Shown piece by piece: positions 43,704 through 44,132 of a stretch of DNA of 64,000 nt. Under the pieces are notes generated by a model. It had not been told where the DNA came from. It saw only the letters and a list, made by a program, of their open reading frames with translations, and did not search any database. The stretch is from assembly GCA_026129405.1 (NCBI GenBank), contig JAHCID010000001.1:837237-901236 (forward strand). The letters run 5' to 3'. The DNA comes from a bacterium. Its GTDB lineage: Bacteria; Desulfobacterota; Binatia; DP-6. The translations under genes and the position numbers were made by a program. Within the stretch, counting starts at the first letter, position 1; every line of letters begins with the position of its first letter.

Positions 43704-43784
43704 GGGCGCGCGGGCGACAAGGAGCGGGCCGAAGGGAGCGGGCCGAAAAGAGCAGGGCCAAAGCGCAGGCCCCGAAACGCGGGC

Positions 43785-43860
43785 AAAAAAGAACCCCGAC
43801 GGCCCATCGCGGCGCGGGATGCGCCGCGCCCGCCGGTGAGTGCGGGCGCCGTCGGGGTTC
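43785..43860 (-). terminator. Strong intrinsic terminator with branched stem
   Basis: A 13-bp perfect stem (GAACCCCGACGGC / GCCGTCGGGGTTC, 43791-43803 with 43848-43860) encloses two smaller perfect stems (43809-43827, GCGGCGC arms; 43826-43849, GCGCCCGC arms, sharing their junction, so only partly compatible). Read on the minus strand it is followed at once by TTTTTT (43790-43785). It is the only classic U-tract terminator I found in the window. It ends the short transcript that carries the 14-codon ORF. Confidence 0.85.
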
Positions 43861-43868
43861 GGTGGTGA

Positions 43869-43893
43869 CTGGGTCCCCGTAGGAATGACCCAG
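43869..43893 (-). other. 3'-untranslated hairpin of the small transcript
   Basis: CTGGGTC pairs perfectly with GACCCAG around an 11-nt loop, between the small ORF and the terminator. With the stem further downstream it makes the 3' part of this transcript highly structured, unusual for a plain leader peptide. Confidence 0.6.
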
Positions 43894-43914
43894 CGACGCT
43901 GAAGCGGATCGACC

Positions 43915-43959
43915 CTAGGAGGTCACCACCTCACAGATCACCGTAGGGTATTTCGTCAC
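43915..43959 (-). CDS. 14-codon small ORF (MTKYPTVICEVVTS) with extreme ribosome-binding site
   Basis: GTG start at 43959, TAG at 43915-43917. The peptide is M(V)TKYPTVICEVVTS, with one Cys and no recognisable family. Directly upstream on the minus strand, AAGGAGGTGATCCAG (43973-43959) complements the last 15 bases of typical 16S rRNA, with 7 nt between GGAGG and GTG. The last codons contain ACCTCCT (43923-43917), able to pair 7 bp with AGGAGGT of the SD, so translation could be gated by RNA folding. A promoter-like site lies upstream and a U-tract terminator downstream. It might be a leader peptide, a modified-peptide precursor or a ribosome-titrating RNA. Coding status is a hypothesis. Confidence 0.5.
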   Translation of the reverse strand: MTKYPTVICEVVTS

Positions 43960-43973
43960 TGGATCACCTCCTT
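43959..43973 (-). promoter_or_regulatory. 15-nt Shine-Dalgarno match
   Basis: AAGGAGGTGATCCAG on the minus strand. Ordinary sites in this window match 5-7 bases of the anti-SD; this one is complementary to the entire canonical 3' tail of 16S rRNA. It decides the GTG start of the 14-codon ORF and may also act in its own right as a 30S-binding element. Confidence 0.65.
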
Positions 43974-44103
43974 CCTTCGGCGCACGCGGAATGGCGGGTC
44001 CCAACCCACCGCCGGGAGGCGACCGCCGGTGCCGTCCCCCGACCCCGATCGCCGGCTCGCGCCGGAGAGGCCTGTGTGTGCCTCGATCGGGAGCCATGAC
44101 TTT

Positions 44104-44132
44104 TCCATACGCTCGCTTCGCGCACCTGTCTA
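44104..44132 (-). promoter_or_regulatory. Promoter-like site for the small transcript
   Basis: On the minus strand, TAGACA (44132-44127, 5 of 6 to the -35 consensus), 17-bp spacer and TATGGA (44109-44104, TAT of the -10 kept). Initiation near 44097 would give a leader of about 135 nt and a total transcript of about 310 nt ending at the terminator. It lies just downstream of the glycosyltransferase gene end. Confidence 0.45.

Follow-up and report, generated by a model that had tools for sequence, protein, structure and literature searches.

Among the small RNAs catalogued in Actinobacteria, Ms_IGR-5 (Rfam RF02471) is a named family whose entry, as shown, includes neither a wide phylogenetic spread nor an open reading frame (ORF). 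For its homologues, published work describes a transcript that was validated in S. lividans (PMC8079986) and one found by RNA-seq in M. smegmatis (PMC10454040), classes the S. avermitilis RNA as an sRNA transcription unit (PMC8780764), and reports protection by ribosomes in both M. abscessus and M. smegmatis (PMC4974804). Judging by its number and location, scr4389 of S. coelicolor may be the same RNA. The literature searched for the homologue and for its peptide strings yielded no function and no printed peptide, and the main text of PMC5521070 contains no mention of Ms_IGR-5, RF02471 or CC2171.

The present analysis concerns a transcription unit located at about 44098 to 43785 on the minus strand of the 64-kb window (the whole stretch of 64,000 nucleotides that was analysed), in which a promoter, a 15-nt Shine-Dalgarno (SD) match, an ORF and a terminator are combined. 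RF02471 aligns with the window over the full length of the model (positions 1-184 of 184, E 5e-6 to 9e-6), with a score of 33 bits that lies below the gathering cut-off of 45 and thus outside membership as the family is defined. This cut-off is passed, at 57.0-70.3 bits, by four loci from Methylomirabilota that share the ORF frame. As far as can be read from sequence, the unit also resembles RF02471 in being a stand-alone intergenic RNA with its own promoter elements and terminator. By these comparisons the unit is no orphan, but is homologous to Ms_IGR-5, representing a divergent homologue and not a member as defined, and common ancestry of the two is very probable.

All elements listed in the initial annotation were found on the minus strand when the window sequence was checked, and for the host the statements on promoter, terminator and 16S rRNA have the sequence as their sole basis. 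The promoter-like site consists of a -35 element TAGACA (44127-44132) that is separated by 17 nt from a -10 element TATGGA (44104-44109). A strict sigma-70 promoter scan of the element gave no match, the scan missing this promoter because the -10 element in the window is devoid of the final T, but an alignment of 12 relatives across 44132-44104 exhibits a conserved T-N-GACA (kept with one or two departures, one relative reading GGAAAA), a spacing of about 17 nt and TA(NNNT), the -10 element of the relatives reading TANNNT. In the lineage of the window the promoter is followed by a 5' RNA domain of about 110 nt (43985-44097), which contains a conserved ACACACAG near its start and which has 75-79% identity to relatives from about query position 63 onwards. 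Actinomycetota and Zixibacteria lack this domain, their promoter lying directly next to the SD.

The extended SD, AAGGAGGTGATCCAG (43959-43973, minus strand), corresponds to the annotated 15-nt match. It is the only exact match in the window (0.07 expected by chance at two or fewer mismatches), and it is complementary to the 16S rRNA 3' tail GCTGGATCACCTCCTTTC, the tail having been read in genomes of the same class (L097 and L100). At the base following the GGTG of the SD, 251 of 252 copies have A or G, either of which pairs with a U in the 16S tail. In the host assembly (G000), the pattern GGATCACCTCCTT is present only at the element and at one unrelated place, and the 3' end of the 16S rRNA is seemingly missing from the assembly. 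Behind the SD, the annotated GTG-started ORF of 14 codons, VTKYPTVICEVVTS, is present at 43959-43915 of the minus strand (GTG ACG AAA TAC CCT ACG GTG ATC TGT GAG GTG GTG ACC TCC TAG), and its frame, GTG start and TAG stop correspond to a frame, start and stop that are kept in relatives and in other phyla. The 3' hairpin that had been noted was likewise located (CTGGGTC/GACCCAG), and is followed on the same strand by an intrinsic terminator, GAACCCCGACGGC ... GCCGTCGGGGTTC, with a nested hairpin (43791-43860), which is present in most relatives too. The corresponding U-tract, TTTTTT (43785-43790), is the sole run of six T or six A in the window, in agreement with its designation as the only U-tract terminator there. 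By a simple pattern, a U-tract terminator is recognized in 152 of 249 copies. When 43781-44000 is folded, its stability exceeds that of shuffled sequence by 4.7 standard deviations.

A search of 58 genomes of related groups produced strong matches, which are most conserved from the SD to the stop. In the class to which the host of the window belongs, a sequence-only model of SD and ORF identified the element in 63 of 148 genomes, this count being reached after removal of weak matches in six genomes, which cover model positions 1-35 only, the SD part, and which, in the loci that were read, fall on the reverse complement of the 16S 3' end. With a broader model (E up to 0.001), matches were obtained in 81 of 95 genomes of Methylomirabilota, 43 of 132 of the phylum Zixibacteria, 3 of 148 of Nitrospirota, 67 of 198 of Actinomycetota and 28 of 199 of Acidobacteriota, the last two counts including weak matches that rest on model score (a few of the weakest in Actinomycetota covering the SD part only), with sequence having been read for the fetched loci. 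The 145 Nitrospirota genomes with no match indicate that the model does not fire freely. Nearly all genomes contain a single match, and in the phyla searched with the broader model there is one each; an exception is a genome (G058) whose locus L102 has matches at 289 and 444, the partial second copy lying 155 nt from the full one beside a run of N and probably being an assembly artefact. From these loci the RNA, as delimited by its sequence elements, is about 200 nt in general and about 310 nt in the lineage of the window, stand-alone and mostly single-copy.

A genome-wide pattern comprising the SD and the core UGYGAGGUGGY leaves start and stop unspecified, and provides results on both that are free of finder bias: among the 120 matches listed, 118 contain an ORF whose stop follows GAG GTG at a distance of exactly three codons. 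Two pattern matches (L111 and L202) were dropped as chance hits. The organisms among the listed matches comprise Actinomycetota (mycobacteria, Streptomyces, Saccharopolyspora and others), Rokubacteria, Zixibacteria, Manganitrophaceae, Solibacteraceae and several 'Deltaproteobacteria' of the group of the window, and the ORF peptides read in other copies include MCNPTVICEVVAS, MIDKCTDCEVAET, LIASWTCEVATR, VRIPLAIWTCEVIVT, LKIDICEVAAT* and MNDSLFGTLEVVGR*. One contig titled Desulfuromonadales (L130, genome G152) bears the element with a peptide like that of the Methylomirabilota locus L323, possibly from a mislabelled or mixed MAG. In one Methylomirabilota genome, the element adjoins a sub-threshold match to the cspA thermoregulator (L353, 1-155; 24.7 bits, cut-off 78).

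The frame of the ORF was evaluated in 252 distinct copies, in which the clade label of many loci is the search group of origin and related copies are non-independent. An in-frame ATG, GTG or TTG is placed behind the SD in 242 of these copies (27 and 34 in the other two frames), and 248 have this frame open, compared with 120 and 36 for the alternatives. The distances from SD to GAG cover all three residue classes modulo 3 (65, 66 and 121), from which it follows that start and length move together so as to keep the frame, the ORF ranging from 11 to 19 codons. At least three of the ten copies that have no standard start possess an in-frame ATT at a suitable distance, and SD-dependent ATT starts are functional in mycobacterial reporters (PMC4633059). 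The stop is UAG in 219 copies (87%), UGA in 17 and UAA in 16; the dominance of UAG is seen in GC-rich genomes and in the AT-richer Zixibacteria alike. The most constrained positions are the codons GAG and GTG (43927-43932, minus strand), found in 251 and 252 of the 252 copies respectively, never substituted by a synonym and always three codons ahead of the stop (GAG GTG NNN NNN NNN stop), an invariance that is partly built in, the finder behind this set expecting the core and the three-codon tail. Read as RNA, the two codons constitute an internal SD-like GAGGUG, positioned 6 nt 5' of the last sense codon. Taken together, a conserved RNA with a selected ORF is almost certain.

The conservation and covariation search proposed for related genomes thus found ORF and SD strongly kept, and it further identified two widespread co-varying pairings between ORF codons and downstream RNA. 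The first, P1, joins the 3' half of the ORF (GGTG-NNNNN) to a strand just before the terminator, and is formed in the window by GGTGGTGAC (43922-43930, within the ORF) and GTCACCACC (43861-43869), both on the minus strand; compensatory changes in these strands are seen among relatives as well as in Actinomycetota. In four of five clades (Binatota, Methylomirabilota, Actinomycetota and Acidobacteriota), the P1 partner of a copy outscores partners from the same clade as well as shuffled sequence, with the qualifications that GGUG/CACC pairing is partly inherent to the invariant core and that covariation was judged by permutation and listing, the kinship of copies being ignored. Compensated variants comprise GCTGC/GCAG, GCTAC/GTAG, GCTCG/CGAG and GCTGT/ACAG. 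An exact 5-mer complement test, which is too strict for bulged helices, gave no support for P1 in Zixibacteria, Acidobacteriota or Nitrospirota, and in Zixibacteria P1 is barely supported and the pseudoknot unsupported. A motif like AAT-CC-(N)CAG recurs just 5' of the P1 3' strand in Zixibacteria, Acidobacteriota, Actinomycetota and Methylomirabilota (e.g. L240, L294, L103 and L344).

In the second pairing, the codons immediately preceding Cys form a pseudoknot with the loop of the terminator-nested hairpin. In the window it is composed of CGGTGA in ORF codons 6-8 (43943-43938) and TCACCG (43839-43834), the latter located in an 8-nt apical loop that was predicted independently by folding. A strong duplex is possible in 57% of Binatota, 62% of Actinomycetota and 78% of Methylomirabilota copies, compared with 13-15% when ORF strands are shuffled. 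The two strands switch together, the pairs observed being CGGUGA/UCACCG, UGGACA/UGUCCA, GGACG/CGUCC and GGGAC/GUCCC, and within Methylomirabilota both GGUGA/UCACC and CUGGACA/UGUCCAG are seen.

Pairings that involve the SD itself are of narrower distribution. The closure of the SD by the ORF (ACCTCCT/AGGAGGT), which the initial annotation regarded as a potential switch of translation, does exist in the window, but with at least six pairs it is found in about half of Binatota and most Methylomirabilota copies and in no copy of Actinomycetota or Zixibacteria, and it was rejected as a general design on account of this lineage restriction. In the window and its nearer relatives, an alternative helix of 9-13 bp is formed by ATCCAGTGACG (43954-43964, minus strand), which includes the end of the SD and the start codon, and CGTCGCTGGGT (43888-43898). 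The CTGGGT of the latter also pairs with GACCCAG (43869-43875) in the 3' hairpin, and the sequestering helix and the hairpin CTGGGTC/GACCCAG are consequently mutually exclusive. A helix P0 between the SD end RUCC and NNGGA before the core is not claimed, given a slight excess over same-clade partners in Actinomycetota and Methylomirabilota and none in Acidobacteriota and Zixibacteria.

The tests support a near-perfect complement of the 16S tail beside an in-frame start, a frame with a fixed end, and the participation of the same codons in P1 and in the pseudoknot. We tentatively prefer the reading that the element is a trans-acting, ribosome-responsive regulatory RNA whose fold incorporates an ORF of 11-19 codons as an obligate part. 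Of the two possibilities raised initially, a gene for a tiny peptide and a regulatory RNA that binds ribosomes, the second, with a translated ORF, is the better reading, the first being possible and not leading, as a constraint on the RNA accounts no less well for the exclusive use of GAG and GTG to encode E-V. Support is good for the joint architecture of RNA and ORF, whereas the regulatory output is inferred. A 30S subunit would bind the exposed SD, and the ribosome crossing the ORF would melt P1 and the pseudoknot. At the stop, the terminating ribosome could be retained through SD pairing with the internal GAGGUG, which lies six nt 5' of the last sense codon in the P site, a normal SD distance when the A site is occupied by the stop codon. 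The RNA would in this manner alternate between an open form occupied by a ribosome and a closed form, free of ribosomes, that contains P1 and the pseudoknot, and its stability or availability might thereby follow ribosome supply. In the lineage of the window, the helix ATCCAGTGACG/CGTCGCTGGGT could hide the SD end and start codon while excluding the CTGGGTC/GACCCAG hairpin, and would act as a second switch. That a translation-dependent conformation is the function has not quite an even chance of being correct, and that ribosome supply is the quantity sensed is rather doubtful. It is probable that translation itself is selected, the peptide being a by-product or secondary.

The element could alternatively be a micropeptide gene, its RNA being an mRNA for a product of 11-19 residues ending in [C/S/R]-E-V-[A/V]-x-[S/R/T], with structure only tuning translation. 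The strict frame, start and stop, the use of synonymous Ala codons (GCC, GCT and GCG), the encoding of Ser by both TCN and AGY, and the ribosome protection reported for a homologue (PMC4974804) are consistent with such a gene, and the preference for residue types that remains (C/S/R-E-V-A/V-x-S/R/T) would fit a peptide function too. However, the N-terminus varies in sequence and length, the residue ahead of E-V, which is Cys in 195 of 252 copies, is otherwise Arg, Ser, Leu, Val or Gly, and the codons 5' of Cys track the RNA partner, the Val-Ile and Trp-Thr groups being associated with the loops UCACC and GUCCA. The absence of synonyms for GAG and GTG, the weak residue preferences notwithstanding, favours a constraint at the RNA level over one on the peptide, and a micropeptide gene is considered unlikely, if far from negligible.

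A passive decoy for 30S subunits, in which the extended SD titrates small subunits or the 16S tail and the ORF is incidental, would be in line with an SD that complements nearly all of the single-stranded 16S tail, yet a decoy needs no frame, no stop and no pseudoknot that covaries with codons, which makes it improbable.

The short ORF, the alternative pairings and the terminator resemble a leader or attenuator, in which the position of the ribosome on the ORF decides between termination and read-through into a downstream gene; here this would be a DUF420 membrane protein gene on the same strand, with a start about 80-110 nt past the U-tract. Clustering of the flanking ORFs revealed no neighbour common to the phyla, flanking genes being shared within some groups (e.g. 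mycobacteria with related Actinomycetota) and differing between groups, so that a cis leader is unlikely and one for DUF420 was rejected. Upon inspection, the downstream gene is convergent in Actinomadura and Streptomyces, where we take it, from reading the sequences, to be nitrobindin-like and PdxH-like, respectively. The classification of a homologue as an sRNA transcription unit (PMC8780764) also argues against an attenuator, which is very improbable. That an SD-like sequence, an ORF and a hairpin came together by chance in GC-rich intergenic DNA, for which the small size of the ORF and nothing else speaks, has a vanishingly small probability, being refuted by conservation across phyla and opposed by the frame statistics. 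The early assessment that the unit is too well built to be random is borne out, since the SD, the frame and stop of the ORF, and the pairings are very strongly conserved both among relatives and in other phyla.

Returning to the preferred reading of a ribosome-responsive RNA, its fullest form envisages an ancient, mostly single-copy trans RNA that is common to Actinomycetota, Methylomirabilota, Binatota-like bacteria, Zixibacteria, Acidobacteriota and some Nitrospirota, whose active form would be set by a ribosome on a pseudoknotted ORF, with a second SD-like site holding the terminating ribosome; such a translation sensor with no cis target is conceivable, and is advanced with some reserve. 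If the reading is true, a very old RNA has its own shape coupled to translation. A small RNA already catalogued in mycobacteria and Streptomyces is now provided with a conserved ORF, an extended SD and, in most groups, co-varying ORF pairings, across at least six phyla, and conservation of the frame and not of the peptide offers a way to recognize a very short ORF hidden in an 'sRNA'.

When compared with known systems, the element shares with Ms_IGR-5 the SD, the UGUGAGGUGG core, the ORF frame (the Rfam consensus reads CEVAAR*) and the kind of 3' terminator, and it differs by the extra 110-nt 5' domain of the window and by P1 and the pseudoknot, which are absent from the structure drawn by Rfam. 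tmRNA also has a short ORF within a pseudoknotted RNA, whereas the element has its own SD and start codon, and ARAGORN detected no tRNA or tmRNA gene, and hence no tRNA-like domain, in the 64-kb window. The Caulobacter sRNA CC2171 (RF01867) starts with the same extended SD and GUG, but its consensus ORF does not possess the E-V-x-x-x-stop tail; with scores of 18.6 bits for the window and 22.8 bits for locus L086, far below the cut-off of 75, CC2171 probably shares only the SD with the element. The CC2171 consensus, in which the extended SD and GUG are followed by an open frame, may itself represent another ORF-bearing RNA. The dual-function sRNAs SR1 and SgrS are structured trans RNAs with a short ORF (PMC11133741), as is the element, from which they are distinguished in that the codons of the latter make long-range pairings themselves and its SD is extended. 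In Staphylococcus aureus, extended SD-aSD helices have been described in which a long SD duplex positions the start codon (PMC13009471); a long SD duplex is common to both cases, being an mRNA feature there, whereas the element is a stand-alone RNA that matches almost the whole 16S tail.
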